From positions 3,053,001 through 3,117,000 of the forward strand of contig NC_087392.1 in assembly GCF_963675165.1 (NCBI RefSeq): DNA of 64,000 nt, written 5' to 3'. Shown here one piece after another: positions 1 through 59,582 of this stretch (the first letter of the stretch is position 1; every line of letters begins with the position of its first letter). Source of the DNA: Halichondria panicea. Lineage: Eukaryota > Porifera > Demospongiae > Suberitida > Halichondriidae. A program made the translations under genes and the position numbers. A model generated the notes under the pieces. The model saw only the letters and a list, made by a program, of their open reading frames with translations. It was not told where the DNA came from and ran no database searches.

Positions 1-3000
1 TGCTCTAGAAATGGCACCGGCATTGAACAACAAACAATTGTCCTTACAGGGTCAGTTTTTGATGGACCTGGGAGCTATAAATTTAATTTAAAGCGTTCAC
101 TAAGTTTACCTGCACCAGTAACATCCAATGATTATTGCAATATTAGTCTTCATGACATACTTATCACTGGTTCTGAAGTTATGGCTATACATATTGAACA
201 ACAATACACTGCCTTGTTTGTGGATGTGAACAATTGCTCAATACACAATAGTACGTTTGGTTTTAAAATGGTTAAAGCTTCCAAGGTAGATGTCTTTATG
301 ACAATAGCAAACTCCCACTTCAGCCATAACGGACTAGCTTTGTTTGTTATGAGCAACACTGATAGTTTGGAAACTAGTTTGCTTGATTTAACTGTTCTGC
401 ATACCACGTTTTTTCGAAATAATGGCTGTGGATCAATTTCGCTTGGTCCGAGTGGTATCAATCAGTCACTGTTGCTCGAGAATGTTTCAATTGTTGATAG
501 CCAGGGTAACCGACTAGGTCTAAAATCTATGGGGGCCTCGTTAACTGTCTATGGTCCTGGAGCGATTTCTGTAAAAGACTGCATATTCAAAAGCAATGTT
601 GGCGTTTCCGCTTTCGCTGCGATCGATGTTGATCTTTTATTCACTGGAAATAATCAGTTTGTGGGTAATATTGGAATTGATGGTGGGGCCTTGATATTGA
701 TCGATACAACAATGTGGCTAGACAATGGTACACACATAAACTTCACTAATAACTATGCACGTGAAGTGGGTGGAGCAATATGGATCAAGGAAGATACTCG
801 ACAACCAATCCTCTTCAATATGCGCACTAATCATTACTGCTTCTACCAACTAACATTTGACTTACAAGAACCATGGGAAAACCAATGGATTCCTGTATCT
901 ATTACTTTTGAGAATAACAGTGCTCTTGCAGGGGGTGATAACATCTTTGGTGGCAGTTTACAAAGTAACTGTAAAATGACTCCTAACAAACAGATCAGTA
1001 GCTTTGAAATTGCAAGCAACCTTTTTAAAATTAAACCTACAATGCCACGTAGTGTGTCTTCGATATCCAGTAGTCCTAAAAGGGTCTGCCTCTGTGAGAA
1101 TGGAGCACCTGTGTGTGCTAGGCATGATTTAATTTTACATGAGGTGTCTGTCACTTCTGGAGAAAGGTTTAATTTGAGCCTTGCTGTTGTCGGAGATGAT
1201 TTTGGTGTGGTAACTGGTAGTGTGTTTGCTTTAAACTTAAATGACTCAGAAAAAGAAATCACATTTTTGAATTTTCATAAAAACATAACTGATGCAGAAT
1301 GTGTTGACATTGAATACTCTGTTCATTCTGTAAATAAGAATGTCATAATTTTGCTTGCGATAGACAGGAATGCGGCAGCCATACTGCAGGAGTTCTATAC
1401 AGATGAATACATATTTGGTAAAGAGTACAGAGCTCAAATTGATCAATACAACTCTTCAGAAGAGATTACTTCTTTCCTTCTTGCTGCTCCTGTGCTTGTC
1501 AATGTGACCATTCTCCCTTGTCCCCTGGGTATGGTAGAATCAAATAGTTCTCTCTCTACATGCGTTTGTGATCAAAAACTGAACGAATATGTAAAGGACT
1601 GTATTGTAAAAAATGGCTCTGGTTTGATGAAGCGAAATGGAACCAATTGGATAGGAAGGGATAACACTACAATTTTGGCACATAGGTTTTGCCCGTACTG
1701 CAATAATAGTGTAATTTTTGTAGACATACAGAGTCCTGAAAGTACTGATAACCAGTGTGTTTTCAATCACAGTGGTTTTCTCTGTGGAGGCTGTGCACCT
1801 GGTCTCAGTCTGGCTATCGGCAGCTCTAGGTGTATACACTGTTCCAACAACAATGGGATTTCCTTTTTTGTTTTGTTCATTGTAGTCGGTGTTGCGTTTG
1901 TATTGTTTATCAAGCTACTAGACCTCACTGTTGTTCACGGAACTATAAATGGGTTGATTTTTTATGCAAACATAATTTGGATATTTCAGGGAATGTTTTT
2001 CCCCAACTTTAACCGAGGGGAGCAGCAAAACATCGTTTACGACATATTAAGACTTGTCATTGCTTGGATAAATCTAGATTTTGGTATTGAAACTTGCTTT
2101 ACTAACGGGCTTGATGCTTATGGTAAAATATGGTTACAGTATGTGTTTCCTGTGTATCTTTGGTTTTTAGCTTTTCTCATCATATTGGCGTGTCGTTACT
2201 CCCCCAAAGCTACGCAACTGTTTGGAAATAATGCTGTGGCTGTATTGGCAACAATGTTTCTTTTTTCTTATGTTAAACTCATCCGTACTAATTTGCAAGC
2301 TTTTGGACCAGTAGTGTTAAATAAGTTTACTAGTGTTCAAGCTTTTGAAACAGTAGAGTTAGATAGAAGTGGTGCATGGAGATGGTTGTTGGATGCTAAT
2401 CTCATTTTCTTCGAAAATCCTCATGCTTTTCTTTCTGTCGTGGCATTACTTGCATTTTTTTTTTTCTGCTTACCGTACACACTACTACTTTTTTTTGTTG
2501 GCTGGCTGAAATATATTCCTTTTGCTTGTGTTTCTCGCCTATTGGTAAAGTTTAAGCCACTATACGATACATACACTGGACCTCTGAAGGACAAACATCG
2601 TTACTGGGTGGGCTTGACACTTCTTGTGAGATTGATTTTTGCGCATGTATTATTGGTTTTTCAGGCTACTAGTGGACCAAGTATTAACTTTGGTTTTATT
2701 GTGATTTCATCTGCGATTCTGTGCATTCTGGTTGTTAAGGCTTACAAGAATTCATATGTGATAGCGTTAGAAATTTCACTTTTGCTCAATTTACAAATTT
2801 TAGGAATTGCGTTTTTGTCCACTACTGACATTGACAAGCGTATTATTTTTATTTGTGTATCAGTGAGCGTCAGCTTTTTAACGCTTCTTGGTGTTTTATT
2901 TTTCCATACCTATCAACTGGTGTCCAGTATTAAGTGTTCAAGTAAATGTAGAGCTAAAAAACCTTCTGAAACAAACAATGTGGAAACCGAAATAGCAAAG

Positions 3001-3057
3001 ACTATCAAAACTACCACTTTTATAGATTTGCGTGAAGATTTATTAGTGGAAAAGTGA
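1..3057 (+). CDS. Beta-helix / multi-pass membrane protein, 5' end cut off by window edge
   Basis: The frame is open from the first base of the window to the stop at 3055-3057, giving 1018 visible residues with no intron; the true start lies upstream. The first ATG in frame (181) is probably internal. The N-terminal 300 or so residues show short repeats rich in N, F and G with spaced phrases such as FTGNNQF, INFTNNYA and FENNSALAGG, typical of right-handed parallel beta-helix proteins. Cys-rich stretches follow (CLCENGAPVC; a CGGC motif near base 1790). The C-terminal part (from about 1850) has eight or nine hydrophobic segments, beginning with a stretch containing GLIFYAN, then a short polar tail. 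I recall this architecture from large sponge gene families of unknown function, sometimes named after bacterial polymorphic outer membrane proteins. It is probably a plasma-membrane receptor or adhesion protein; no catalytic motif is visible. Function is inference. Confidence 0.75.
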   Translation, partial: CSRNGTGIEQQTIVLTGSVFDGPGSYKFNLKRSLSLPAPVTSNDYCNISLHDILITGSEVMAIHIEQQYTALFVDVNNCSIHNSTFGFKMVKASKVDVFMTIANSHFSHNGLALFVMSNTDSLETSLLDLTVLHTTFFRNNGCGSISLGPSGINQSLLLENVSIVDSQGNRLGLKSMGASLTVYGPGAISVKDCIFKSNVGVSAFAAIDVDLLFTGNNQFVGNIGIDGGALILIDTTMWLDNGTHINFTNNYAREVGGAIWIKEDTRQPILFNMRTNHYCFYQLTFDLQEPWENQWIPVSITFENNSALAGGDNIFGGSLQSNCKMTPNKQISSFEIASNLFKIKPTMPRSVSSISSSPKRVCLCENGAPVCARHDLILHEVSVTSGERFNLSLAVVGDDFGVVTGSVFALNLNDSEKEITFLNFHKNITDAECVDIEYSVHSVNKNVIILLAIDRNAAAILQEFYTDEYIFGKEYRAQIDQYNSSEEITSFLLAAPVLVNVTILPCPLGMVESNSSLSTCVCDQKLNEYVKDCIVKNGSGLMKRNGTNWIGRDNTTILAHRFCPYCNNSVIFVDIQSPESTDNQCVFNHSGFLCGGCAPGLSLAIGSSRCIHCSNNNGISFFVLFIVVGVAFVLFIKLLDLTVVHGTINGLIFYANIIWIFQGMFFPNFNRGEQQNIVYDILRLVIAWINLDFGIETCFTNGLDAYGKIWLQYVFPVYLWFLAFLIILACRYSPKATQLFGNNAVAVLATMFLFSYVKLIRTNLQAFGPVVLNKFTSVQAFETVELDRSGAWRWLLDANLIFFENPHAFLSVVALLAFFFFCLPYTLLLFFVGWLKYIPFACVSRLLVKFKPLYDTYTGPLKDKHRYWVGLTLLVRLIFAHVLLVFQATSGPSINFGFIVISSAILCILVVKAYKNSYVIALEISLLLNLQILGIAFLSTTDIDKRIIFICVSVSVSFLTLLGVLFFHTYQLVSSIKCSSKCRAKKPSETNNVETEIAKTIKTTTFIDLREDLLVEK

Positions 3058-3400
3058 TGTGTGAGTTTCGTGCTATACCTCTTTTTGTACCTTTGTGTGT
3101 ATCCTCTTCAGGTAGTATTAAAATTTTGTTTGGAGTGTTATAATTAATTATTTTGGTACATCATTATGTGTGCAATCAGGAGTGCATGTCAGGCTAGCGT
3201 TTCACATCAAAATTCCCACATACACTAATGGGTAAAGTTTATCTAATGTTGTATGGCCGTACTGCATGGGTTGAGTGGGGGATACGTACACATGCAAGGT
3301 CTCATGATGTTTTGTATGAGGGTAGTTACAATTACAATGTGCTGCTCCCAGTGCAGTATATTTAAACAGACGTGTTCTGGTGATATAATTATTGAATACA

Positions 3401-3890
3401 GTAGACTCTCGTTAATCCGGCCATAGTCCCAGTGGACGTATTTACTCTTCAAATAGAGTGGGCGTGGCTAGATGGCTAGCCATTCATTTTGACCTCCAAC
3501 AAAGATACAGTGCGAACAAGGTTAAAATTGCCTGGCTACAGTTCTAGCCATTATAATTATAATGGCTAGTCTGAGATTAATGCATTGGGTTTTTGCGAGA
3601 TACAATAATGGTCCCAGAGCCACTACGTAGATCGACTTCATTGTAAAACATCATGTGAAGCACTTCCGATTGGTTAAAAGAGATCACGAGATGCGCATCC
3701 AATCTCAGCCAACATCTCGTGATCTCTTTCCAATCTTTTTTTTTTTCAATAATTATAGTGATCCCCATAATTATTAACTCTGTGACTAAGGCTTTTCTAC
3801 TGTCCATGATATCAGGGGAGTGCATGAATCCTGGTGGGTACAGTAGATGCATGGCCAGATTGGAAACGGAAGTGATTCACGCCTCCTAGA
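3401..3890. repeat. Degraded mobile-element fragments between genes
   Basis: The spacer 3058-4037 has no gene. At 3401-3425 there is a stretch (acagtagactctcgttaatc) resembling the termini of pogo/Tigger-type transposons. At 3575-3640 the reverse strand matches the interior of the terminal-repeat element at 27422-27957 (shared words around the sequence acgtagtggctctgggacca). At 3855-3876 the forward strand matches that element's terminal repeat. The piece also holds a 14-bp inverted repeat (gagatcacgagatg at about 3680, its complement at about 3713). It reads as a rearranged old copy of that element. Confidence 0.5.
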
Positions 3891-4037
3891 TCCTGTATCT
3901 GGCAATGTCAGAGTGGCAATGTTATTCATAACATTCCAATTATGATCTATAAACGCTAGTAGTCTTCGCAGTTTATAAGTACAGTACGTTGCAGTATAAC
4001 ATTAGAGTATAGTGAACTGTCTCTACCTACCTCTATC

Positions 4038-7000
4038 ATGTGCAACCTACATCGATGTCTACTGTTTGCTTCTATCCTGAGTACTATAGGCATTCTGGAA
4101 GGATTGGGTATGTGTTTGTCAATAGCTGTTGTAGAAGTTGTAGATTGTAGGCAGCTCACGACTAGACTGTAAGGCTACACTCCAACAATTAACAACATAA
4201 AGTAGTCTATTAAACTTTCCTTTGTGCAGAAATGTGCTCAACTGATCATGAGGGTGAGATAAGATTAGTAGCTGGGAAACATCAATATGAAGGTCGCCTG
4301 GAGGTGTGCCTCTATCGACCCGAATACAGTTTGAGTCTCTGGGGTACGTTTTGTGTCAATGGCTGGGACTTAGAGGAGACTGTAGTAGCGTGTCGGCAAC
4401 TGGGTGTCCCAGCAAACAGTAAGCAAACCATTACAGCTACTGACATTTCAAATGATTTTTTGCATTTTAGTTACTATGAATGTTTTTGGAGTTTTATTCA
4501 TTGGAGAGCGTAGTTCCACACCTGTTCGTTGGACTAACACTAACTGCTCTGGAGAAGAGGGTCGCCTTGTAGACTGCTTTTATAACAATTTCTCCTGTCC
4601 AGAACGAGAAGATGTGGGGTTAATATGTGCCCAACCTAACCCTGGTAAATAAAACGGCACTATAATGAATCAAAGTGGTGTATAATTATATGCTGCTCCC
4701 TCTTTTTCTTATAGAGTGTAGTAATGGAGATGTACGAATTGTGGATGCGTTTGGTAGAAACTCCACTGAAGGTAGAGTGGAATTTTGTCGTGGCCGACGT
4801 TGGGGGACTGTGTGCGATGATGAATGGGATGATATTGACGCAGCAGTGGTTTGCAAACAACTGAATTTATCGCAAGCTAATGGTATTGGACATTTTTTGC
4901 TGCACGTTTACAGTTTATACCCTTAGGGCAGGAATTTGTTTGTAGCCAATTTTTTATTTATTCATGAACTATGTTTACAGTCCCTAAAACAATTCAGCAA
5001 GACTTAGTGCCATCAGCTGCTAACAATGTTCCCATCAGCCTGGACTTCGTACATTGCACTAAAGATTCCCAAGGTTTGAAGGATTGTCCTGCTCTTACTC
5101 ATGTGCAGCGGTGCACACACGTACACGATGCTGGGGTCAGCTGCCCCATTTCTTCTGGTGAGCTCAGTGCTTATTGCATGAAAGTTGATAAACGTCCATG
5201 TTTAGCTGTATGCTCCTGTAGATAATGCTAGCAACTGAATTTTTTCGTATTGTCCTAGTTGAAACATGTATATACATGAATCATCTTAAACTCTAGTGTT
5301 GATAGCTAGATGACAGTAATGTCACATGCAGAGTGCACGGTAGAGGCTTCGGTTCGACTGGTGGGTGGAAACGAGTCTACAGAGGGCAGAGTAGAGTACT
5401 GCCGAGACAATCTCTGGGTGTCAGTGTGCAGGGATTCGTGGGACCACAAAGATGCTCAAGTTGTGTGCAGACAACTGGGTTTTGGTCAGTTATTGTCCTG
5501 TCCGTACACCCTTTGTAGGTGGTATGATTATGTGTTCACTAACTATTTCTTGTCCATTGTGTTTACTTGGTCTGTCTTATTTACTCAGTTGGAGTCTCTC
5601 TAGCGGAAGTTTTAACATTTGAAATGAATTTCGATCATGGGATAAAAAATAACATTGGTCCAGTACAATGTGAAGGCGAGGAGAATAACCTCCTTGAGTG
5701 TCCTAGTGAAGGAAACTGTTACTTGAGCCATGGGGCTGGAGTCAAATGCTACAATGGTAATTTTATTGAAATTGAGATTGACATTACATACAGTTACTTA
5801 GCTCTGCACTAGAAATTTAGCTATTGGTAGCTGCAAGAGTAAGAAGAGAGCTGCAAGGCTCTACTGTATATACTGTACTGATGCAGCAGCCATTAATTTT
5901 AGGCTGTAATTGGTATCCTCATGATCGCATTACTAACCAAAATAAGAATCCTTTACTGTTGTAGCAGTATGGTTTTATGTGTTGACGGTATTGTGCAGAG
6001 TCAAACTGTGCTCCTGATTCGAGTGTGAGGGTTGTAAATGGTGTCATCTCTGATGAGATTGGCACAGTGGAGCTCTGCTATGGTGACTGGGGATACGTGT
6101 GTGGGGACTCATGGGGTGATACAGATGCTCAAGTGTTATGCCGACAACTAGGACTCACTGGTAATAATAATTGCATCACTATAATGCGAAACCTTATTTG
6201 TACTACTCTGTCCCCAGCAATAAATGGCTTTGCCTCATGCAATTAAAAACCTTGCCATTGCTTGTTACTCGTGCTATCCCTTATTGCTAATAATTATGAT
6301 TATTAACAGAAGTTTTGCTCCCAAGATTCCTTTAGTCTGAGCTATCGATTTTGGTATAATTATGTGCAAGCCATGCTTTCATGTGCAGTTTCCTCTTCCA
6401 GGAGGAATAGGATATCCTACTAGCCTGTTTGGCTCAGAAACAGGCAGGTTCAATCTTAACAATGTCAAATGCTTGGGAAATGAAACTTCCTTAAGTGATT
6501 GCTCACATGACGGGTATGGTGCTCACAATTGTATGGACAGGATGACAAAGCAGGCAGCAGTCATTTGTGGTACTTCAGCAGGTACAAATATTGAGAATTG
6601 AGAGGACTGAGTATGTATAATTATAATAACTCTGGTTGTATGTTTATTTGTGCCTTATATTAGGAGCTGGGGTATCTAGGTGCACAAAAGAGCAGCTTAA
6701 CAAGAGTGTTGCCACTAGCGAGACTTCACTCCAAGTTGGAAGGTAAAAACTGTTGCAGTATACATGTACATATATGTACACTACTATATATACATGTGTC
6801 TATATACTTATACTGATTTGAGAGTGACTTCTCTCTATCTTGTGTGCATGCAGCCTTGGCACTTGTGAGCGTTACCAGCGTCTTTCAAGTATCTGCAACA
6901 CAGTGTTCAATGAGTCAACAGGCTATGTGTTTATCAGAAACAGTAGCGGACTATTCAACCAGAGTTGGCTTTCCTACAAATTAGATCAAATACTGTCTGA

Positions 7001-9685: not shown

Positions 9686-11505
9686 CGATCTGAGGTCTGC
9701 AAACGACTAGTTGTAATGTGCATGCAGATATCCTGTGGCATGGAATACCTGGCTCATGAGAAATTTATTCATAGGGACTTAGCAGCAAGGAATTGCATGT
9801 GAGTATTTCCTTTCATTGAGGACTCGTCCTTCTACATCCAACATACACAGTTCCTTTAATGCTACTAGTACTGCATGTTTATTAACAGAAAACAATCTGT
9901 GGATACATGCATGTATATGTGAACTGCTTGTTTGGAGACTGTGTTGTTTTATACAGGATTGACATCCACTTTGTGATCAAAATAGCTGATTTTGGGCTCT
10001 CAGAGGATGTGTATGCCAAGAGCTACTACAGGCAGAGTGAAACAGACAAGAGTACCAAGCTTCCAGTAAAGTGGATGGCACCAGAGAGCCTTACAGACGG
10101 CCTCTTCTCAGAGAAATCTGATGTGGTATGCTGTGTTTACATACCATAAGTACATGCAAAATCTTCTAGGAATGTAAGTGCACTCATGCATATAAGTATA
10201 TATAGGAACAGTTCGTAGTAGTGCTTTTGTTAAAAATATTTGTTCTAGTAGGGCACTTGTAATTACATGGTATTTTCTCTGTTGATTAATTGAACCAACA
10301 GTAGCTATTGTCAGGAGCCCATAAAGAGAAGGAGCGGCTAACTTCAACGTATACTCGAGGATCACGTTTCGTAATTGCCTGTGAAACCGCACTTCCTTGT
10401 ATGGAAGCGACTAAGTGCTTGCAAACCGCAGCCTGCATGGTGTATAACACGTGTAGGGATTCAAGTGACTCTGCATATATGGCATATATGGAAATGCGGT
10501 CATAACCACTTACGAAACGTGATCCCCGTAGTTAGCCGCTCCTTCTCTTTATGGGCTCCTGCTATTATATATAGATGACTCTGAGACACTTTATTACTCC
10601 ATAATAATTATATTGTCGTGAGTAGATGAAACTTTACAGCGACTTAAAGGCATTTTAATCCACATGCGCAGTGGTCGTATGGTGTGACGTGCTGGGAGTT
10701 GTTCAGTGGAGGCAAAACGCCATATCCTGGAATGGACCCGATGTCACTCATTCGTATGTTAGAGGCTGACAAAAGACTCAACAAACCTCTCAACACAGCA
10801 TGCCCAGATGAAATGTAAGAGCATTATATACACAGTGCTATGTACTAACATACATGTACTTTTCACATAAGTAACGACGTTTGGTAACCATGTGTAGAAA
10901 TTAAGGTCAGATTATTTTTTTGCTGTAGGTACCAAGTGATGCAACGGTGCTGGGAAAAGTCTCCTGACCGACGACCGACTTTCAGTGACCTTGTGGAGAC
11001 TATTTCAGAATACACAGAGAAGATCGCTGGCTACTTGGACATAAGCTTATATAACCCTTTTGTAGCAACCTATGAAGAAATTAGATCACCAGAAGATGAG
11101 CAAATAGTTTCTGACCCCGACCAAGTAGTTCGTTGCATGAAAAACAAGGATAACAAGCTAAAATCAACACCCTGCAACTCAACACTAAATTCACCTGTCA
11201 GATCACCATATTTCACCCCCAGGGGCTCACCTAGGACATCTCCAATGGCCTCCCCTATTCTATCCCGCAACAGACCGGCCCCTGGCATCTTGTCATGGCA
11301 TGCTTCTCCTCAGCCACATATCGGTATAAGAAACCATGTCGAAACTCCCTCTCAAACTGGAGAGCAGACTAAAATCGCATTAAATGGGAGGCGACTCAGT
11401 GTGGGGGCTGGACCAAGTAGTCAGGTTTTTCATACTCCACAGAGAAGACTGAGTGCCAGTGCTGCAATTCAAATCAAGATAACAGAATCTGAAACCGATG
11501 TTTGA
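4038..11505 (+). CDS. Receptor tyrosine kinase with four SRCR domains and a Frizzled-like domain
   Basis: Twenty exons: 4038-4107, 4230-4418, 4471-4644, 4715-4882, 4981-5157, 5332-5484, 5589-5756, 5999-6160, 6402-6581, 6664-6742, 6854-7284, 7343-7535, 7673-7800, 7958-8134, 8454-8546, 8630-8847, 9686-9798, 9957-10125, 10672-10814, 10929-11505; 1253 residues. Residues 1-23 form a signal peptide. Four SRCR domains follow (about 24-144, 145-259, 260-366, 367-480), each with VVCRQLG-like and paired Cys motifs. A Cys-rich domain at about 507-650 has the Frizzled pattern (CxxFMPTC, then P and three spaced Cys). One membrane helix lies at 670-696. The kinase (about 808-1095) is complete: GQGEFG loop, VAVK lysine, [27 protein letters not shown]. 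The kinase most resembles the Axl/Met/Ror area of the tree. The tail is Ser/Pro-rich. It should signal at the plasma membrane; the ligand is unknown. Family assignment is firm, orthology is not. Confidence 0.9.
9635..9684. repeat. (CA)n microsatellite directly abutting a splice acceptor
   Basis: About 25 CA units end exactly at the AG (9684-9685) that precedes the kinase exon starting at 9686. The repeat occupies the place of the polypyrimidine tract. Confidence 0.9.
10312..10561. mobile_element. 250-bp foldback element in a kinase-gene intron
   Basis: Perfect 31-bp terminal inverted repeats begin caggagcccataaagagaag and end in its complement. Complementarity continues inward through gaggatcacgtttcgtaa and its partner near 10510, so the two halves could fold into one long hairpin. 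Flanks are ctattgt and ctattat, a possible 7-bp target duplication with one mismatch. There is no coding capacity, so it is non-autonomous. It lies between kinase exons 18 and 19. Confidence 0.8.
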
Positions 11506-11730: not shown

Positions 11731-12747
11731 TCAGTCTTGTACCTCCTGATTGTGGACATGCATAAGTCCCTTAAAGTACTTAACAGTTTTTACTCTCAGT
11801 TCCAAAGTTGCGTCTTCGTCACACACAAACAGGGCCTTGGGGTGTTGTTGGAAAGTGGACACAGTCCACATGTGACTAATACCCTCTTCTATTGCTTTGT
11901 ATAGAGCAAATGCCTTACTCACACCAGTAATCAGAATCATTACCTGCATAATTATATACATAATTATAGAGATCAAATGACACACAAACCAGAGGCAGAA
12001 AAAAAGGATTCGTACATGTATAGAGGTAATTTTTGTTGCACATTTTCATTGAAGTACCAAATATTATACGTACAGCTTAGAATGCATGGTGATGTAGAAC
12101 CTACTGCACATTAACTATAGAGCACTGAAGTGCAAACCCTTAATTGGCTTGAGGTTTAGTAAGTCTACAGCCTCGAGTCAAAGTCGCGTGTACATTTAAG
12201 CCAAAGTGCAGATTCGAGTTTTTAGTTTAATTATTGGGGTATAATAAATGAAAACACCGCGGGTGTTGATATACCTCGGTGGAGGTGTCAAAGCTATACA
12301 TAACATGCATACAACTGCTTTTATATACACATTATATCATTGATGTTAATTTTGCTGTCCTGCAGGCACTGCTGCAGAATCCAGAATCACAGGGAAAACT
12401 TGAAAAGTGGGTTATGATTGACCGATCGACGCCAAAAGTCTAAGTCTAAAATTAATGGCTGCATCAGCAGAGCATTGCAGCTCTCTTCTCACTCTTGCAG
12501 CTACCAATTATAGCTAGCGTTCTAGTGCAGAGCTAGCTACTAAGTAGAGTAGCAACACTCGGCGGACAAGTTTTGCTACGCACTCTTCTGAAAAGGCTAC
12601 AATGGCATCCCAAATAAGAAAAACTAGAGAACGAAGGATTAATTATTTTGCAAATCCACGAAATAAAATCCAAGAAAACATGACTAGAAGCCTTGAACTT
12701 CATTGATCCTTGAGCAGCTACTGCTCAAGGATCAATGAAGTTCAAGG

Positions 12748-12819
<72 letters not shown>

Positions 12820-15440: not shown

Positions 15441-18400
15441 ATGCCCCGTACTAGCAGCTCTCGTGAGTCACTTTTTCCAGAGCTCACCTCTAAACTGAGC
15501 ACTGACGAGCTTGTCAAAAGACTCAAGGTAGACATGTATATACATGTACAGTGTATGTACACGACATGTATTGTTCTTGATAATGCCCGTTTATGTATCA
15601 ATGGCATGTACATGTACATTAAGTCCTTTCATTAGTGGTTGGCTGGTATTTGTGGCTCACTGATGTGAAGTGTTTATTTGTGTGCTATTTTTCACTGCAC
15701 AGTTTTATAATAACATCGTCATGTATCTGTAATAACAAGAGTCTTATCTAACGCATGCATGCTGTGCATCAGATGTATTCGGAAAGGAACGTGACTTCCT
15801 GCTTGGTAACTGACCAATCCGAGCGCCTGGAGCCGCCACTTATCTCGAGGCAACAATAATGTTATTGCCAAATGTAATTATTGATCATGCGTTTCAGACA
15901 GGAAGTCACGTTACTTTCTTACACAGTGTATGCGTTCAATACTCTCTCTTTTATTATGGACTCTCGGTGATAGTAATGATCTTTGATTATTTGACTCAGA
16001 CATGCTTGAAATATTTGGTGGAGTGCGATGTGCTGAAAGAAGTAAATATCTCTCACCTGAACAAGCTCTCGTGTAGTCTGCTCCTCTCATTTCTGCACAA
16101 CCATCGCAGTAGGGATGTGAAGGCCCTCACTGCTGCTAACATTGTGGAAGTATTCAGGCTGTTCCATCCCGAGCACCCCTATGCTGATGACGACTTAAAG
16201 GTTTGTTCTACATGTACAATAAAGTGTGTGTCGTGGTATTTTGCTAAAGTACGTTTTAGATGATTAAGTGGTTGATTCTTGTGTGTGATGTAGGTTGTGT
16301 TTTCACTGTTTGTTTCACAACTGAGGGGGCTGGACCAGCCCAATGGAGCTCCATTCAAGCATGCATTTCAGCTCCTTGAGGTACTTACTGCAGTGTCTGT
16401 ACAATCATTATTCAGTAACACATAATTATATTAACGACCTTTACAATGTTTAAAATTGTATGTACATGTATGTACCGAATATTGTTGATGTGTTTACAGT
16501 CCCTGATGAAGCTGCAGCTGTTCTTGCTCTGTCTGTCACCTGACTTGTCAGACATTCTTGCTGACTTCTTCAAGATAGCTTTTCATGTTGTAAGGTACGA
16601 TGTACATAAAATGGTGTGTTGCATCAGTTGATGCAGTTCTTTCAGCAGTTCCTAAAACTGTTATACCATATAGCGCGAAATTTTCGAGAGTCTTAATTTT
16701 CGCTGATTTTGTGGGTTAGCAATCCTACACGAAAATTAAGTCCACGAAAATTGTTCTTTAATTAAAATTATCTGCGATAACGTGCAAAGATTAAAGGCGT
16801 GGCTTCCGGTTAGCAGTCATTCCACGAACATTGTGCAACGAAATGCTTTTAGAGGCCATTCCACGAAATATAAGTGCCTCGAAAATGTCGCGCTATACGG
16901 TATATGTCATCATATCACTCACGTAAGTCTTGTTTCCCTAGTGACATTCAGACGCCCAAGGTGAAAAACTACCTACTGGATATGCTAGTCCTCCTACTGC
17001 ACGAGGGAGAGATCGTCTCTCCGGATATACTTGACACTATGCTCACCAACATCATTGATCCAGTCAAGGTCAGCAGTCATCTCATCTACTTTCCTAAGGG
17101 CTATATATGTATTTGTGCGTGCTAGCTGCCTCATTTTATCTTGGACTACATTGTGTATGCTGATGTTTTTCAGATCAATTGTTATTTTCTTCTACAGTCA
17201 TCCAATAAACCTGTGTACAGTTTTACTGTCGAGTTGATTCGTAAGGCTAGCTCTTACATTGAGCCACATTTACACAAAGTGAGTAATATAATGTTATGAC
17301 GATTGTATTAAGGATGAGCCCTGAGTGAGCCCTATATCAATACCGCTTTTGTCTGGCAGCTTTCCTAGGAGACAACGGGTGCAAGAACCTTATATATTTT
17401 CTCATGTTATGGGTACAAGCATTCGTTTATCCCTCTAGAAACAGGCTCTTAATACATTTGCGTATCCTCACAAACAAATGCTCCTGGCAACTATAATTTA
17501 ATCCAATCGGGTTTGCCAGTCAGGGCTGCATCCAGGATTTTGGGTAGAGGGAAAATTTAGGAAAATGAAATAGTTGAGGGCCCAGGGGTACACTCTCCGG
17601 GGAAAGGTGGAAATGTGAGGGTCTAAGATCATTTTGGCTCAATTATCCGGACACCTACCATTTAGTTCATAAACAGCAGTGCAAATTTTAGGTACGTGGT
17701 TGGTCTGCGCATGCGCAGAAGATTAACAGGCCTGTCTCCATGGTACCAGCTGTTGTTTGCGCATGCACATTTAAGGGAAAGTTTTACGCTGTTGGAGAGG
17801 AATTTGCTCAGCCAAATAATCCAGGGTCTACTGGTGTCCAGAGATCACTTTTGGCAAATATTCTGTGGGATATTGTAGTACATGTAGTAAAGCCAACTAG
17901 CTCTAGTTAAGAAAACGACTTTGCTTGACTGTGCTACGTGTACTAATTTAATTAAGGCTTTATAGCAGTGGATATCCTATCATATTTTGGCTGTACCTCA
18001 TCCTCTGTTGAGGACATCCGATGGCAATATTAAACGTTTGGAGTGGAAAATGACGCAGAGTAGCTGTTTAAAACTAACTGTTTAAAACTGACCCTCATTA
18101 TAATGTCTGTGCCATCCTGAATGATAAATATAATTTTCCAAATCCTGGAGGGTGGGGGCGAATTATCCTTTTCTCCTCTACCTAAATGCAGCCCTGCCAG
18201 TCCTCATAGACACTAACTTGTTGATCAAACAACAGGCAACATGATTGCTATAGAATGTATGTGTTGCTATTGAAAGCCCAATACATTATGTCCACAATCC
18301 TCACGATAACAGCTCCCTCCCCCTTGCAGTCTCTGTGTGTGCATTATGTAGAGCACAATTTCACTCAAAATTGTCTTATTTCCCACCAGTTCTTTAACAA

Positions 18401-21400: not shown

Positions 21401-24400
21401 ATACATTTCAATGTTTCTGACCTGTATAGCGTAACATAATTGTTATACCGTATAGCGGGACATTTTTGCTATTTTGGCTCTAGAGCCGCCAGCAGAAATG
21501 TTTGTGAGTTCTAATATTTCCGTTTCAATGCCATGCAGGAAACCACAACCCACCAATAGTTTTGTATGTGAAATACCAGTGCGTGGGAGTTTAAGTTTTA
21601 ATTTTCGCGTTATCTGTTTTGCCCTCGAAAAACGCAATTTTGCACCCCACGAAAATTTCTCGATATACGGTACTCCCACTTTTGAGGGTTTCCCACTGTC
21701 GTAATGCTCTTATTGTTGGCGCGTAGCTGGTCAATCTGTCTGTTTGTCATTCTACATGTATGTATTCTAAGTCTGCTCACCTGGATGCGATTAGCGCTGT
21801 GTTTGTGCAAGTGTTGTATGTATGTACACTGTATTTCTATCTCTAGCTTGCAGTAACGAATATTTGAAATGTTTTCTATGTAGGCAAGCTTCAGGAGCGC
21901 ATCTTGGACAAGGATGAAAAAGTGAGGATGGGAGTGGTGAAAGTAATCTTGGAGACTGCTCAAGAAAACATCAAGTTACTGCCTCAGGAGGTAATTGATG
22001 TGTCACTGAATTCAACATTGTCTCTCTTATACTATGGGAAAGTTGTTGTTTTTCACTTTCCATATTACTGCTGTGTTTCTTTCCTTTAGCTCATCGATGC
22101 ATTAATCAATCGCTTAAGAGACAAATCGGTAAGGAACCTTGCTGGCCTGTGCGAGTAGTTTTCTATTATCTACTCTCTTATTAGTGGAATGTTCGAAGAG
22201 AGGCCATGATTGGTCTGGCTAAACTCTATCGTAAACTGCTATCTGGCTCCTCATCATCTGAAGTTGAGCTCAAGCCCTCTTTAGTTAGGTGAGTCAAGTT
22301 AGGGTTTTGTTGGTGTTTTATGTGTACCTTAGCACACTTGCCCGTTATCTAACAAGCTTGGCCTATAAATTACACACAACGAGTAGAAAATGATTATATA
22401 ACATCGCTTCCTACTAGCTGAGATGAATAAATAAACTGCATGTTCTTCAAAGTCTATATAAGGTTCTACAGGGCTTGCTTCACCAGTCCCAATATGTGCC
22501 CTGACCTCTACTGCAGTTACAATCAATCATATACATGTACATATTTATAACAGTATAGCACTTGGACAATTGTAGCACGAGATGATCGATGATCTCCAGT
22601 CAATTATCCCTATTCTCTCCCATCCTACAGAATGTACTCATGGATCCCCACAAAGCTCCTCCATTGCTACTATATGGTGTCAGCAGAAGACAGACTGTGT
22701 GTGGAGAGATGTATGCTTGGTGCGCTGGTACCTGTCAGTTATCGTTCCCAAGATCGCATGCAACGACTCGTGCATGTCTACGCCCGGCTGGATGAGAATG
22801 CTACCAAGTGAGCATGAACCACTGGTCGTGTTACAAACGTGGATGTTGTTTCTTTTTAGGGCATTTGATCAGCTACTTGTCTCAAGGCATCAGTAAGTTT
22901 TGTTGATTTTTACTCGAAATAACTCCTTACATTAATAATTACTTGTACGCTTATAAGTGGATTTTTCCTCATCCAATATCAGACTGAGGAAGCACATGAT
23001 GTCCGTTGTTACTGCTATTCGGTCTGGACAGATTCCAGAAGATGAGACGAAGGATCACGTGCTTACTAGTCTTGTACTTCCAATTGCACGTGAGTCCTGG
23101 CTAAGCCAGTGTTATAATGATGTGTATGCCAGCTATTCTCAAACAGTACTGTACATTGTACATGCATTGTACCTACAAGTATGAACTCATACAGCAACAT
23201 CAACATAATTATGTTTGTCTGCTTCTTAGGAAAGCTTCCTGAGCCAGTGAAAGCACAAGCTGCACTCAAAGAATTCGTTAAGATGCTGCTTGAGGACGAA
23301 GAGATGGTTGATACTCTTGCAAAGGCAGTTGACTGTGTAATACCATGTGAACATGTTCAGAGTGCAAAGGTGGTTATTACATCATCATTGTGATTGTATT
23401 TATCCCCCTGGATCAGTCACTACATTGTTGGCACCATTATTGTACTGTATAAAAATTATACGTAAAACTTTTTAGGTGTCTTTAATCTACTCGCAGTTAG
23501 CCTCGATCCCAGGCCGCACTTCCCGCTAGGGAAGTGGCCGGTGAAGGAGGCTAACTCGCAGTATTACATTATAAAGTACATTTGTACATGTACATCTTGA
23601 TAATTCTTACGCGAAGTAATGGAAGTTGCTTGAGCATGTTACTTTTTCATAGGTGGAAATGCTGAATAGCGTGAAGTCCAACGATGTGGTCATGGAAGTT
23701 ATGAAGAACCTGTTGGATTTCTGTGGCAAAGTGATGGTTGATAATCTGTGTATTGGACACCTTGTCGAACAGGTACCGTTTTACTTGTCACTGTAATGTC
23801 TAGATTGTATTGCAGCTTGAGGTCCCAGTGTGTAGGTTATTTTCATTTGCATACTACATGTAGCTAGCGCAACTGTATTCTGTACATGTATGTATTTCAT
23901 TGTAGTATTAAGTAACGTATAATGTATGTAAGTGATGGTACATGTATGTATTCTTATGACTACAATGACTACATGTGTATTATTTCTATGATAGGTTTCA
24001 CGGGCTCTGTTTGACTGCCCATTGTCAGACAGCCAGGAACAGGAGGCAGAGACCTTCATGGTTGCTAAGAAGGCTGTCAGATTGTTGAGGGTTAGTCCAA
24101 GGTCTTAATATCCATCTTGTGATATGTTGAGCCACCATGTACCGTCTATATACTATACGATATAATATATGCTCTTTTGTCCTCTTCCCCACTGATTCCA
24201 AAACTTTCGCTTCCCCTCCCCCCCTGCTGCTCCTACATGTAGATTCTTCTGTGCATATAAATAATTTCTCTTTGTAGGTTCTGGCGCCCGTTATTCCTGA
24301 GTGTTTTACCTCTAATGAAGTGTTCACCGGTTTGGTTGACATTCTCAATCACAAGGATATTGAAATTAGTGAGTGTGTGAATTTTTTGTCATCAATTAAG

Positions 24401-29165: not shown

Positions 29166-29877
29166 ATAAACAAATTATTACTATACCCTATCCACTTCTT
29201 CATGATATTTAGTTATAGCAGTCACTCCAATATTATAATTATTATTAGTCCTCTATGATGCCTTTTTAAGATCAACGTGTACAGAACTCATCACCCTCAC
29301 TTCCTCCTCAAGAGCCTGCATAGATCTATGTGGCAGGTTCTAAACTTTCCTTAACTCAGACTACATATCACCAGTATTCACACGTCACCCTTTGACATTC
29401 TCATGTTAAACGATTTTACTGTCATTGATATATTTTATACTGCTGCTGTTAATTAAGTATGTGTAGGCCAAGAGTAATACCTTAAGGTGACATATTTTCG
29501 TGTGTATTGATTTCTGCTATTTCTGCAAATGAGAGTAAAATCGCAAAAATTAATACTCGCAAATAATTGACCGCCCTCTTGTTTACAGATTGACATTTCG
29601 CAAAAAAATTACACCAGCAAAATGTAAAAATGCAAACAAATCTACCTGTGAAAATAATATTATGTCACATACAAAATATGTAGTAAGTAAAGTCAAGAGT
29701 TCCTAATGAACTCTTGGTAAAGTAGATAAGGGAGTATCATACACAGAATGGGGTCAACATGCAGAATGTCGGCCACACCCATAATTATGGCACGGTCTAG
29801 CCTCGAATCATCGGCCTGGTCTCGAGGCTAAACCTTACCAAGATAGTTGTGTCTCTAGCTAGTGACAGTGAGTGGAC
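29166..29877. other. Intergenic spacer between PDS5 and DHDH
   Basis: No gene is seen. A 33-bp hairpin with tagcctcg/cgaggcta termini at 29798-29830 belongs to the small hairpin family described at 23498, 42491 and 55970, but here I find no flanking direct repeat. Confidence 0.5.
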
Positions 29878-40370: not shown

Positions 40371-43300
40371 ATGCAAATAAAAGACACAGACAAACTGAAA
40401 GAATGGCTGCTGAAGAAGTTGGAGCCACTGTAATCACTATTACTTTCTCTATGTAGATTCCATTGGCTAGAGATGAATATAGCTTAGTGTTTTTCGAGCT
40501 TGGTGTGTGTTTATTTTGTATGATGGGATCCTTGTATGATTATATGTGGGTGCTTGTGTGCAGGTGTGATGCAGACCCTGCTGCCTTGGCCAAGTACGTT
40601 GTAGCGTTGCTACGAAAAGAGAAACCAAAAGCAGCTTTGAAAGAACTCTGTATTGACCAGCTAGAAGTTTTTCTAGCCAAAGGTGTGTCCACCATAAATA
40701 TAATTATTTCTACCCCTGTGCCCTCACAATTGCATACTAGAATGGCTATGCAGCTAGTTCATATAATGCCAACATTACCACTATATAACTTCACGTGTCA
40801 AGGGTGGAGTATTGTAATTGCAGGTCATGACTGATAGATGTAACCACCAGACATAATTAATTCTAAAGTGTGTCACTTCATTATGCAGAGACAGCAGGAT
40901 TTGTGGAGCAGCTTTTTGCTGGCCTGGACAACGAGTTGTACCTCAAGGGGACAGACTCTGTTCCACCCACCAACACCGGCAGCAAGACCCCACCTCCACC
41001 ACCGGCACCAGACACTGTTAGTGTGGAGAGGATGCAGTCAGAAGACCATAGCAGGAGGAATGAGGTACATATACATGTAACTACACTGTACAAGCTGAGT
41101 GTTCCATAGGTGTGGTACACTGTATATTAACATGATTTATACTAACTTGCATTCCTTGCCAAAAACTTTTCAGTTTAAAAACCTTCAGGTGTAAGTGCCA
41201 TGCTGTATCATAATCTGTAGGTGGATGATGAGGACAGGGATTTTCGTCGGTCAAAGCGATTGGGTGATGGTGGAGCTCCAAAGAGAGTGGTTTCCACTGT
41301 AACAAGTAGCACTGGACTTGGAAGAAAAAGGAGAATAGATGCTCCTCAGGAGATCAGTCAAAGTTCTGTGAGGTATGTTACAAGAAAAATTAATGTCCCA
41401 ATAGACTGTGTGTTTTTGTACCCTCTAGAAAATAATTGCTGTTGTTGTTTTTTAGGCGCCGTATTGAGCACAGTGGTGGCTCTGCTGTCAGTTCTTCCTC
41501 AGGTACTGCAAAAAGGCCAGTCAGAGAAAGGCTGGGAGTGAGGCAGGACGATCTGAGGAGGTAACAGAATACAGGGTTTTGTAGAATCTTTGCAACAGTA
41601 CTGTGTAAAGCTTAAGCGCCTATGTACACTGGTTTACAGATGAGTAACCTCAATACTTATTACCATTAACGACCACCTCCAAAGAGCAACCACACGCTTA
41701 TAACGGCCAAAAGCTCAGGTCCAGATTGAAACTACAATGACTTCAATGTAAAGCAACCTCTCAGGAGCGACCACCTCTCTACTCCGTATAACAAGCAGCT
41801 TTCTAGTCCCCAACAGCTTTAGCAATGGAAAATAACCTCCCAGAACGGACAGCCGCACCCAGAATTAGCAGGAAATTATTGCTGAGATAGCATTATTTTG
41901 CACAATCGTGAAAACTTAGCTGTAGCTTGTCCCTGCAGCCTTTTCAAAGCTTGTATGAGCTAAATAAGCAGTTAGCAAAACTCCAAGATTCATTTGCAGC
42001 AAGAAATGACTCATAAAGCGTACATAGCTGGCAATCGAAACCTCCCAAGGAAGACCACCACTCTATAACGGCCAAAAGGCTGTTCCCCAATGGTGTCCGT
42101 TTTATGGAGGTTCCACTTTATAACTACATCTGCAACATTTGCAGTACTAGAATATTTTTGGAGTGTTGATCAATTTGCAATATATAATCATAAAAACCTG
42201 TACTGGTACTGTTATGATACTGGTACTGTTATGACACAAGATCCTTCGTGACGCACTAGTTACACTGTATGTACTGTATTCTACAAGAAAAAAGTGAGGA
42301 AATTGTCTTGGGAGCCAAAGCCAAAGCAAACTAAGGTATACTCAGCAAGATGGCAGATTATAGGAAGGTTTGAGTAAGTCATGTGAGAATAGAAGTAGCA
42401 CACAATCTCTGTGTTGACCCATTACAGTAAGTATACGATATGTATGTAGAACACAGTCAACTAGCAATAATTACACAGCATGGTACAATGTAGCCTCGAG
42501 ACCAGGCCGATTAAAATCGGCCTGGTCTCAAGGCTAGGTACAATGATGTTTATAGCCTCTCATCTACAATAATAAAAGTGTCTATTACATAATAGTATTG
42601 AGTTTACTCATCTGTAAACCACAGTGTACAATAGGCTGCTTTACACAGCACTGTTGCAAAGATTCTGCAAAACCCTGTTATACCATAATTTTAATTTTGT
42701 TATACCATAATTTTGATGTTATACATGTAAATATGTATTACGTACAGGTAATGCATTGCGGTTGTTGCTCTGATGTGTACTACATGTGCATTCATATGTG
42801 TATAATTAAAGCGTGTATAGCAACATCTCTAGTTTGTCTGCTATGGTATATATATATATATATACCAAAATCTTAAATCTTACAAATGTATATGTACAGT
42901 GGTGACAGGCGAGGGAATAGGTACCAGCATCGTGGCCGCAGCAGCTCTTCTTCAAACTCTGACAGTCAGTCGAGCTCGGACAGTGACCGGAGGAGCAGGG
43001 GGAGGAAGAGAGTACATTACTCTAAGAACCGCTCCTCCTCCACTGAAGACATGAGGAAGCAGCGTTGCAAGGACTATGATGGTGAGATGTGACCACCTTT
43101 AATTCAACATGATAGTCCAGTGTGTATGACAACCTTTAATTCACCATGACATGTAGTCTAGTGTGTATGTCGACAGTGTCTGACTGCATAAACTTTACAC
43201 ACTCCACAGAAAAGGGAGTGTGTATCCTTGGTGAAAGCTGTCCCTATGATCATGGTGTTGACCATCTCGTTATTGGAGGGAATGAAATGCCCCAGTTTCC

Positions 43301-55667: not shown

Positions 55668-58600
55668 CTACGGCTGCTCAGGGATTAATTGTAGTGCAAA
55701 GTAAGAGCCTTCTAGTCATGTTTTCGATTTCAATATGTGGATTTGCAAAATAATGCTTTGTTCTCGTGCATTAGAACACTAGCTTTTGGTAGCTGCAAGG
55801 GTGAGAAAAAAACCTGCACTGCATGGTCTTAGTCTATCTGTGCTTGGACTTGGGCATTGTTTTTAGCAACAATCATAGTCGATCATTTCCCACTATTTTG
55901 AGCATTCCTGCAATGGCCTGCATGCAAAATTAATATTATGTGTGTATTTAATAGCTAGTAGCCTCCACCTAGTCTCGTGGGCCATACTTTGAAGAGGGAT
56001 ACTTGTAGTGTCCCCCTTGACTATAGTAGTATCCCCCTTTAAAGTATGGCATGCGAGACTAGCCTCCACCGAGGCATCAGCACTTGCGGTACTTTCATTA
56101 TTACATGTGTGCTGCTAACTAAAGTACAGTGCAATCCAGTGGCGTTTGAAAAGCTGCTATGGGGAAATTGCAGAATTTAATATATGGAAGAGGATGAGCA
56201 AGCTGGCATTACCTATTATTATTATTACATGTTCATGTCAGTAACTACATGCAGCTTGCTTGAATCACTTCTTACGGCTTTGTAATAATGGGATGCCGGT
56301 TTGTGTCAAAATTATTCTTTCACGATATTTACACACAGTCTTCTACACTTCGACCTTTAATTTAATGTTAAACTGGAGAGTGGAGGGAGAGGTGGAGCTG
56401 CACATAGCAGGCTGGAGAGAAACCTGATGAGTGATTAACTAATTCCAGCCTCTGCCCAATCTACATTCTCTAGTTTACCATTAAATTGAAATTAAATCGT
56501 ATTAATTAAAGGCCGACATCCTACAAAACACAGAAGACTAACGATTGGTAAACATCAACTGATTGTTAGAACTCCATGAAATAATAATTTGGACACAAAC
56601 AGCACCCCATAGTGAAAGATGAGGATTCTTTGTTTGGTATAATGGCTGACCAGCTTGATTTCTTGAACTCTGTAGCCATCATGCAGCAAGGCTGGAATGA
56701 AACGGCTAGTTTCCTTACTTTTTATGAACTATACCCCGTTAAACGGAAACTTTTATTTGAAGGCTGCCTCACTGTATTTTATTCCCGATAGTACAAGGAA
56801 GCTAGTTACAGTAATCTAAGTCTAAAGGTGAAACTTCTTCATTGAACCTATAGTCATTCGGCTTTCCAGTTTTTTTAACAACCTGTCCCTTCTCGTTTGT
56901 CATTGCTTTTCATAGGAGGGGCTCCCCACCCTTCAAACCATGGACGAGATGCAGTGTATGTGGTTTCAGAAGGAGATGGCAATGTCTTATTGGAGGACTG
57001 GTCAGCTTGGAGAGGCACTGCAGAAACTCCATGAGATGGACAAGGTGTGAGGTTATAATACTGTAATTCAGTTAAAAGATTTATTGGTATCGTTTCACCT
57101 TATCCAGCATTTTAGTGACATGATTGACGATCAGTTTGATTTTCACACCTACTGTATGAGGAGGATCACACTAAGATCATACATCAGGTTAGTCATTGTG
57201 TGCTTTGCTAATTTTAGCTATGGAACATGCAACATGAATTGTTGTAGCGTTCTGAGGCTAGAAGATACCATCAGGAAGCACCCATCGTATTTTGAGGCAG
57301 CTAAACTGGCTATTAAGGTATAAAAGTATAAGCACTCGGCTACTTTTAACCATTTCTTTTATAGATATATATCTTCATCCACGACAATCCAGATGCCAAA
57401 AATGCTAAAATGAATGGAGATTCTAACAATATCAGTTAATTGCACTTTATTGTGTTTGTTTTATTAATGTTAGTTGATTCATTGTGTAGGTGACTTGACA
57501 CCCTCTGAGCTTAAAAAGCTGCAAAGAAAGCAGAAGAAAGCTCAGCTCAAAGCTCAAGAAGAGAAAAAAGGTGCTTGCATATAACATACTTGTTACAGGA
57601 CTAACCAATGTTGATTTTCCATAGAGAACAAACCACAAAAGCAACACGAGGAGGAGAAGAAAGGGGAACAGAAGTATCCATTCTTTGATCCAAAAGAGTT
57701 ACTTGAGACCAAGACGCCTCTTGAACAGGCCCTGAAATTCCTGTCGCCGTTACGGCTGTTCTCCAGTGGGAGAATAGAGCCCCACTTACTGGGCTACGCT
57801 ATCCATTCGAGAAGACGTGAGTGGTCATGGTCATTGATCGATCACCTTTACTAATATGCAACATAATGCACATTGCTTTAGGAAAGTTTTTGCTGATGTT
57901 ACAGTCAATAAAGAGAGCACAATGCATAGATGCTGAAAATGGAGAACTACACTTGAACATCGTAAACTTTGTCGCAGAAGGTGTGTAGATTTTTGTATTT
58001 GTATTACATTCTCAAAGTTTCACCAAAACAGTTGAAAAAAGTCGTGACCGGCTACCTGACCCAATCCGCACTGTGATTGATGAGAGTCTCAGCTTGCTTA
58101 CACACGGCAACAGTCTCACAGAGCTCAACAGAGATTTTGTACAAAAACACAAAGAGTCACATGAGCACTTGATATATGGTAGGTGCAGCATGTTTATTTT
58201 TTATAAAACACTGTGTAAATACTACTGAGGTAGGTGCAACACTGTTCAAAACATGGTGTAAATACTACTGAGGTAGGGTGTAATACTACAATCATTGCTT
58301 TTTCTTGGAACAGGAGCACAGGCTATGTTTGCCATTGATCCAGCCAACAAAGATAAGGCGCTAGCGTATATTACTGAGCTCTCTGATAATATCCATGGAA
58401 GAAGCCTCAAGGTTTGAAATCTCCCCAGCTGTGTGTGTGTGATAATCCATGCGTTAACTTCTAGTCATGCAGCCAAGTGTTGGACTTGCTTAAGCAAGGA
58501 GTGTTAGGAAAGTGTTCAAATGAAGTAATTATGTTATACACCCAACAATGCTCAAAGCTATTCCCTATGGCAACTGTGTTCAGACCAGACCCATCTCCTT

Positions 58601-59028: not shown

Positions 59029-59184
59029 TACCGTATAGCGGGAAATTTTCATGTTTCAATGCCATGAAACCAAACCCACTAATATTTTGCATGTGAAAAT
59101 ACCAATGTGTGGGAGTTTATCTCAGTTTTAATTTTCGCATTACGCGAAATTTTGCATCCCACAAAAATTTCCCGCTATACGGTA
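59029..59184. mobile_element. TA-flanked MITE, CCGTATAGCGGG type (downstream of NAA15)
   Basis: It starts ta-ccgtatagcgggaaattt and ends aaatttcccgctatacgg-ta, 156 bp with about 20-bp nearly perfect inverted ends. It is related to 21446-21672. Confidence 0.85.
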
Positions 59185-59258: not shown

Positions 59259-59582
59259 AGTTTCAATTCCCTGTAATGGTTTGTTGTTGCGTCTCAATCA
59301 GTGGCATGGTTTAACCGCAGATAGGGCTTGGTAAATTATGCTAGCATAATAATTGCATAATTTTTGGAATAATAGGGAGACTTCTATAGCAAGCATAATT
59401 GAGAATAATACTGAATAGGGCATTAATTAAATTATAATAGTTTGACCCTCAGAGTCTTCACATCTTATAATGTAGCTATAGATAGACATGCATGCATCTA
59501 TAGCATAATTTACCAAGCCCTACCTGCGGTTAAACCATGTCACTGATCGAGAGACGCAACAACAAACCATTATTGAAACTGA
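59259..59582. repeat. Long imperfect inverted repeat, arms about 80 bp
   Basis: The left arm 59259-59341 (gtttgttgttgcgtctcaat, catggtttaaccgcag, ggcttggtaaattatgc) pairs with the right arm 59500-59582. A few mismatches and one- to four-base gaps separate the arms. It could be a foldback element or two head-on copies of one repeat. Confidence 0.8.

Follow-up and report, generated by a model that had tools for sequence, protein, structure and literature searches.

Here we examined a 64-kb window, by which we mean the whole stretch of DNA that was analysed, and located it on contig C16 of the 131-Mb assembly. The window contains three hairpin-like micro-elements, each between 9-bp target-site duplications, and a fourth similar hairpin. 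The features are as follows.

23489..23497, no strand: left 9-bp target-site duplication of copy 1, ACTCGCAGT
23498..23553, plus strand: copy 1, a 56-bp micro-element
23554..23562, no strand: right 9-bp target-site duplication of copy 1
29798..29830, plus strand: fourth similar hairpin, 33 bp, TAGCCTCGAATC...TCTCGAGGCTA
42482..42490, no strand: left 9-bp target-site duplication of copy 2, GGTACAATG
42491..42536, plus strand: copy 2, a 46-bp micro-element
42537..42545, no strand: right 9-bp target-site duplication of copy 2
55961..55969, no strand: left 9-bp target-site duplication of copy 3, GCCTCCACC
55970..56061, plus strand: copy 3, a 92-bp hairpin with TAGTCTCG ends
56062..56070, no strand: right 9-bp target-site duplication of copy 3

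An earlier, sequence-only reading had placed copies 1–3 at exactly these positions, and the flanking repeats agree at 9/9 bases on both sides of each. The fourth hairpin shares their ends but is not flanked by a duplication. We scanned the window for 8-base inverted ends (one mismatch or fewer, insert of 25–600 bp) that are flanked by exact 9-bp repeats. This returned four matches, namely copies 1–3 and one unrelated match at 45453-45503, compared with an average of 0.033 in each of 30 sequences simulated from a first-order Markov model. Copies 1, 2, and 3 fold with z-scores of -4.5, -9.5, and -10.1, respectively, each better than 200/200 shuffles, and the fourth hairpin folds weakly (z -2.8, with 3/200 shuffles as good). 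Copy 1 begins with TAGCCTCGATCCCAGGCCG on the left and, read inward, with TAGCCTCCTTCACCGGCC on the right. The right ends of copies 1 and 2, TAGCCTCC and TAGCCTTG, contain one mismatch each. Copy 1 had been described as almost entirely its own inverted repeat; it is indeed a hairpin, but an imperfect one because of the mismatch at its right end. The broader claim was borne out: these ultrashort insertions form a family in which the ends are shared, the duplications are 9 bp long, and the interiors differ.

The window contains other inverted repeats. At 12689-12749, a palindrome with perfect 29-bp arms (AGCCTTGAACTTCATTGATCCTTGAGCAG) and a 3-nt spacer lies directly 5' of a CA repeat; its ends resemble those of the family (AAGGCTA), and the window scan gave no 9-bp duplication for it. 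A 64-bp near-perfect palindrome at 47479-47542, CGCATGCGCATTACATACACAGGAATAA..., does not have family ends. Four inverted-repeat copies of 156–243 bp with TACCGTATAGCGGGAAATTTT-type ends (16662-16904, 21446-21672, 43957-44174, and 59029-59184) are probably a MITE family. Inverted-repeat elements at 10312-10561, with perfect 32-bp arms, and at 59274-59572, with long composite arms, are likely further transposons.

A genome-wide hairpin search of the kind that the sequence-only reading had proposed yielded 870 places for the pattern TAGYCTCG-N10-40-CGAGRCTA in the 131 Mb and 0 for the reversed control; the pattern is its own reverse complement, and every place is counted on both strands. We took 24 pattern places, all on C1, of which 16 of the 23 testable ones have 9-bp flanks with at most one mismatch; L074 was left out, and several places share flanks, so they are not independent. 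Three of four further places (L131-L133) have such flanks as well, and L134 does not. The right end of copy 1, CGGTGAAGGAGGCTA, occurs at 376 places in the genome versus 1 for the reversed control. Forty right ends of this type were picked by hand in list order among 100 places listed of the 376, with some near known 1.3-kb elements skipped, and a left end was present within 110 bp in 19 of the 40. The left-right spacings are 27–69 bp, with 0 at 70–110 bp, and the remaining 21 are longer or have no left end. Among the 19, the 9-bp flanks are perfect in 8 and within one mismatch in 11, compared with 186/17,948 for re-paired flanks. When a right end could be paired with more than one left end, preference went to a left end with a matching repeat, which is a bias toward duplications, and L089, L093, and L095 are a single insertion copied. 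The duplication is 9 bp in 51 of 53 retained elements and 8 bp and 10 bp in one each; for retention a duplication was obligatory, 9 bp was tried first, and one mismatch was allowed.

We compared 27 element records, some of them the same insertion, with the fetched loci, aligning both flanks and one 9-bp copy. Three unfilled paralogous sites were obtained, all ungapped. The 52-bp element of L008 is absent from L005 (99.4% identity over 159 bp), the 57-bp element of L030 is absent from L027 (98.8% over 160 bp), and the 1,093-bp element of L006 is absent from L007 (100% over 160 bp). Since these paralogues align cleanly around a single 9-bp copy, the family elements are real insertions with 9-bp duplication, though an element may have been longer on arrival. 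At L030:231-332 and also at L045:3613-3714, two elements stand in tandem, and one and the same 9-bp sequence (GCAACTTCC, three times) precedes, separates, and follows them; L003:1501-1787 shows a like arrangement with TTCTAGAGT. L027 has only the 36-bp element of the first pair, so the 57-bp element arrived exactly at the older duplication. The tandem arrangement could reflect target re-use or a preference for existing ends. A 738-bp inverted-repeat element at L053:7120-7857 starts with TAGCCTCCTTCGCAGCCTCTCCTTTTTCTGTTC, has a 9-bp flanking repeat (one mismatch or fewer), and possibly belongs to another lineage with related ends.

Larger elements with the same ends, which the sequence-only reading had suggested seeking, were found in the form of gene-bearing relatives of 5.6–6.1 kb.

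C14:5650576-5656218: full-length element A, 5,643 bp, with the duplication GTGTTTACC on both sides
C3:4321314-4327405: full-length element B, 6,092 bp, with the 10-bp duplication CCTCGCGCCC
C5:4079267-4085087: full-length element D, 5,821 bp, with the duplication TGCCGGCCT, of which only the ends were read

In elements A and B, DUF6589 and a helicase are encoded on opposite strands. Two frames of element A match DUF6589, at 109 and 57 bits; the element also contains DEAD, Helicase_C, and RecQ_Zn_bind domains, and its helicase fragment matches RecQ-family chains. In element B the helicase domains are DEAD and Helicase_C, and DUF6589 is borderline, at 28.1 bits in one search and 25.2 in another (cut-off 27). 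DUF6589 and RecQ matches were also found between the ends of element D. A zf-AD domain scores over its cut-off of 28 in B (28.3 bits) and L051 (30.4 bits) and under it in A (22.2 bits) and L055 (18.9 bits). Throughout the genome, RecQ lies within 4.5 kb of DUF6589 at 11 of 63 merged DUF6589 loci, and all 11 pairs are convergent; random placement gave a mean of 0.74 and a maximum of 4 in 500 trials. The count of 11 is a lower bound, since the 135 merged RecQ loci come from a list in which 150 of 798 candidates were scored. In two of five DUF6589-RecQ loci searched for ends, only one family end lies in the stretches read.

Seven longer copies of 516–2,060 bp have family ends and duplications, and several of them bear broken pieces of a DEAD/RecQ-like helicase or of zf-AD. 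The helicase pieces of L021 and L045 alone gave no match against Pfam; the link of L021 to the helicase is its 80% DNA identity to L055, and that of L045 was read by eye. A DUF6589 fragment had no match among solved structures up to E = 1, and DUF6589 was not found by name in the literature searched, which does not prove that it is absent from the literature. We infer that the zf-AD/DUF6589 protein is the transposase of the 5.6–6.1-kb elements. DUF6589 matches also lie in unusually long open frames of 1,617–1,732 aa at C3:3629098, C9:1650827, and C14:4797543, perhaps representing a different lineage.

The sequence-only reading had attributed the 9-bp duplications to a Mutator-like or Merlin-like enzyme acting in trans. 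This is not supported, as the elements that carry the same ends encode DUF6589 and a RecQ-like helicase. Both enzyme types are present, with 31 MULE-domain and 24 Merlin-type (DDE_Tnp_IS1595) matches in the genome. Duplications of about 9 bp fit mobilisation of the hairpins by Mutator-like elements, and in PMC10045372, IS256/MuDR duplications are given as 4–10 bp, but this length is common to other superfamilies. We surveyed 20 MULE loci with 1.5-kb flanks and nine stretches of about 10 kb, some covering the same loci, from the 31 matches. At one, L049, a MULE lies between two TAGCCTCG-type ends. It sits, however, in a nested insertion (848-6571) with CAGTGGCGG-type ends inside a 1.36-kb element, and has its own inverted repeats at 1693/6513. 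The TAGCCTCG elements at MULE loci L025, L027, L030, L034, and L045 bear duplications of their own, and elements A and B hold DUF6589 and helicase frames instead. Together these observations make a MULE partner highly improbable. L049 was itself considered as an autonomous MULE element, with TAGCCTCG-type ends near 97 and 7136 enclosing MULE, SWIM, CXXC, and OTU frames, and was dropped because L051:4677-6035 proved to be its unfilled homologue, which lacks the insert. The insertion at L049:848-6571, which has CAGTGGCGGATCCAG ends and is itself nested in a TAGCCTCG element, holds a MULE with ALS2CR8, SWIM, CXXC, and OTU domains.

Merlin-like elements would also produce duplications of close to the observed length. 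Among 20 loci read from the 24 matches, candidate ends were identified at 11, and none is TAGCCTCG-type. Four of these (L005, L008, L014, and L015) have clear 8-bp duplications, and the other seven show one of two recurring palindromes (CTAATTAG and CTTCCGGAAG) that may be part of the ends. Two members of the family, of 52 and 1,093 bp, are later insertions into Merlin copies. A Merlin partner was rejected on end sequence across the 20 loci, and we consider mobilisation of the hairpins by such an enzyme extremely improbable.

The elements had also been called mobile. Insertion of such elements is established by the unfilled sites; that the tiny form itself moves is indicated mainly by the 56-mer of copy 1. 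The core of copy 1 has two exact places genome-wide, at unrelated sites with different duplications. The second, at C2:8253885 in L108 (C2:8253849-8254013), is an identical 56-mer between perfect 9-bp ACCTCAGCC repeats. The simplest reading of the pair is one transposition of a 56-bp unit, and it is possible that the same deletion arose twice. Because this 56-mer occupies two sites with different duplications, some micro-elements may move in trans. For copy 2, seven exact core places are present, six of them on C7, and the three C7 places read have common flanks, so they appear to be one insertion copied with its surroundings; copy 2 was thus rejected as a multi-site mobile form. It is two edits apart from a 47-bp element, L129, which lies at another site with different duplications. 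Of the two exact places of a 47-bp form, one is flanked by a perfect duplication and the other lacks a duplication. A genome search with copy 3 matched only itself (one place), and its membership of an amplified subfamily was rejected.

In total, 43 micro-elements with duplications were retained. With the tandem composite omitted, these represent 34 independent insertions by site and 33 exact forms; allowing four edits, there are 27 forms, six of which, including copy 2/L129, occur at two or three independent sites. One explanation is that 36–66-bp hairpins are the mobile unit and are moved in trans by a DUF6589 protein that needs about 19 bp of end. The clean unfilled sites of the 52- and 57-bp elements, the two sites of the copy 1 56-mer, the near-recurring forms, and the 870 pattern places are all in keeping with this explanation, and the near-recurring forms leave room for some mobility. 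Conversely, a MITE burst would yield many near-identical copies, unlike the 33 exact forms in 34 insertions seen here, which are also compatible with remnants shrunk in place, and exact cores are few (two for copy 1, seven for copy 2, partly with common flanks, and one for copy 3). We therefore regard micro-elements as the mobile unit as a possible but doubtful explanation.

Instead, extreme internal deletion of the 5.6–6.1-kb helicase transposons is the probable origin of copies 1 and 2 and, with less confidence, of copy 3. The parent family has TAGCCTCGA..CCAGGCC-like ends, a 9-bp (sometimes 10-bp) duplication, and convergent zf-AD/DUF6589 and RecQ-like helicase genes. A longer copy would be inserted by the putative transposase and later excised or broken, with repair copying just the outer part of both ends. 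Repair may then halt near a terminal hairpin (CCAGGCC-loop-GGCCTGG in element D), and joining of the two short ends would leave the original 9-bp repeats on either side of a hairpin-like remnant. A minority of these, including copy 1, may retain enough end sequence for movement in trans. Perhaps, then, copies of the A, B, and D type collapse through repair stalled at their terminal hairpins.

Matches to known ends point to this origin. We compared 33 of the 43 retained micro-elements with 42 parental ends. The 10 omitted were same-insertion duplicates, the second 56-mer (L108), a 28-bp case with an 8-bp duplication, L091 with its odd end, and the tandem composite. The ends comprised 19/21 from longer copy-1-type elements and 23 others, three of which (L022, L121, and L122) are single ends whose partner is unproven. 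In 28 of the 33, a known end is matched on both sides for 15–37 nt. About 19 nt of every such match is shared by the whole family, so it is more telling to ask whether two of the ends together account for an entire micro-element. They do so for nine of the 33; with ends shuffled beyond nt 19, 100 trials gave a mean of 3.1 and a maximum of 7. For example, joining 31 nt from one end of the 1,065-bp L045 element to 21 nt from its other end gives the 52-bp element of L008. All of copy 2 is accounted for by 27 + 22 nt of D-type end with a 3-nt overlap, its first 27 nt following one D end. Counting against internal deletion, the 42 ends give no full cover for 24 of the 33, and the near-recurring forms would also fit mobile micro-elements that have since mutated. 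Copy 1 has 12 nt uncovered by them, including a fold-back of the left arm, GGGAAGTG, after CACTTCCC. In copy 3, for which no parent was found, 76 of 92 nt are uncovered, and the match is confined to eight terminal bases. Of the two parental ends folded, that of element D forms a small hairpin, TAGCCTCGAGACCAGGCCG-loop-CGGCCTGG, that beats shuffles (z -3.2), but the shorter stem at the left end of element A is matched by them (z -0.2), which counts against the hairpin step.

The micro-elements could otherwise be excision scars, in which the transposase cuts inside its own terminal hairpins and the donor site keeps the fused termini between the 9-bp repeats. Such scars fit the micro-element junctions about as well as stalled repair does. 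The 27–69-bp spacing of copy-1-type ends, with none at 70–110 bp, is consistent with them, and inspection by eye places some junctions within a hairpin loop or close to one (L069, L132, and L133). However, the junctions vary by tens of nucleotides and include fold-backs (in copy 1, GGGAAGTG), which is closer to what error-prone repair would leave, and the hairpin of the element A left end is no better than shuffles. We consider excision scars rather unlikely. It is also rather improbable that the terminal hairpins are working parts, with the DUF6589 transposase and the element's own RecQ helicase processing hairpin ends and every excision or failed repair regularly fusing the two hairpins into a sometimes mobile micro-element.

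The proposed internal-deletion origin resembles that of MITEs and other internally deleted transposons, which arise via abortive gap repair (see PMC2213677, among others). Like MITEs, the micro-elements are non-autonomous and retain both termini and the duplications. They differ in being far shorter (mostly 36–66 bp), and in being hairpin-like over most of their length. Where amplification of MITEs from few progenitors would give many near-identical copies, 33 exact forms were seen here in 34 insertions, or 27 forms when four edits are allowed. Among the papers listed by a literature search for names of very short MITEs, most were about arachnid mites, which does not prove the absence of such names. 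In fungi and algae, mitochondrial GC clusters and double-hairpin elements are likewise tiny hairpins dispersed over many sites. Palindromic repeats of Volvox are the subject of PMC2670323. The mitochondrial elements are organellar, whereas in the family described here the ends are fixed, the duplications are 9 bp long, and there are coding relatives of kilobase size.

As for the parent family, other DNA transposons that carry a helicase have been described. Kojima is said to have described, in 2020, AcademH DNA transposons of animals and fungi that encode a helicase beside the transposase. The likeness to AcademH is the helicase gene inside the transposon, here the domains noted above for elements A and B, and it extends to helicase presence only; the elements here have 9–10-bp duplications and TAGCCTCG termini. 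AcademH is mentioned in PMC10799480, and in PMC10294476 the mean length of Academ in bivalves is 5,565 bp, close to the 5.6–6.1 kb seen here. From these comparisons, the 5.6–6.1-kb element may work like AcademH and may belong to it, and our guess is that DUF6589 (PF20231), the candidate transposase here, is the Academ transposase. Kolobok elements duplicate TTAA, unlike the 9- or 10-bp duplications of varied sequence found here. KolobokH, including Kolobok-1_CCri, is described in PMC9587614 as a DNA transposon that carries a RecQ helicase, which in one instance lies on the complementary strand. The elements here resemble it in carrying a RecQ helicase in that orientation.

These results place DUF6589, a family without an assigned function in Pfam, together with a RecQ-like helicase in a single DNA transposon whose ends are defined and whose duplications are 9–10 bp long. 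Natural short forms also occur in the genome by the hundreds, and their junctions may record the collapse of a hairpin-ended transposon with both ends retained, and these junctions make it testable why some transposons carry a RecQ helicase. Repeat annotation may miss palindromes of tens of bases with perfect duplications. If the terminal hairpins do serve as working parts that are regularly fused at excision or failed repair, DUF6589 would gain a function, and 36–66-bp hairpins would be a standard by-product, sometimes ranking among the smallest nuclear mobile DNAs.
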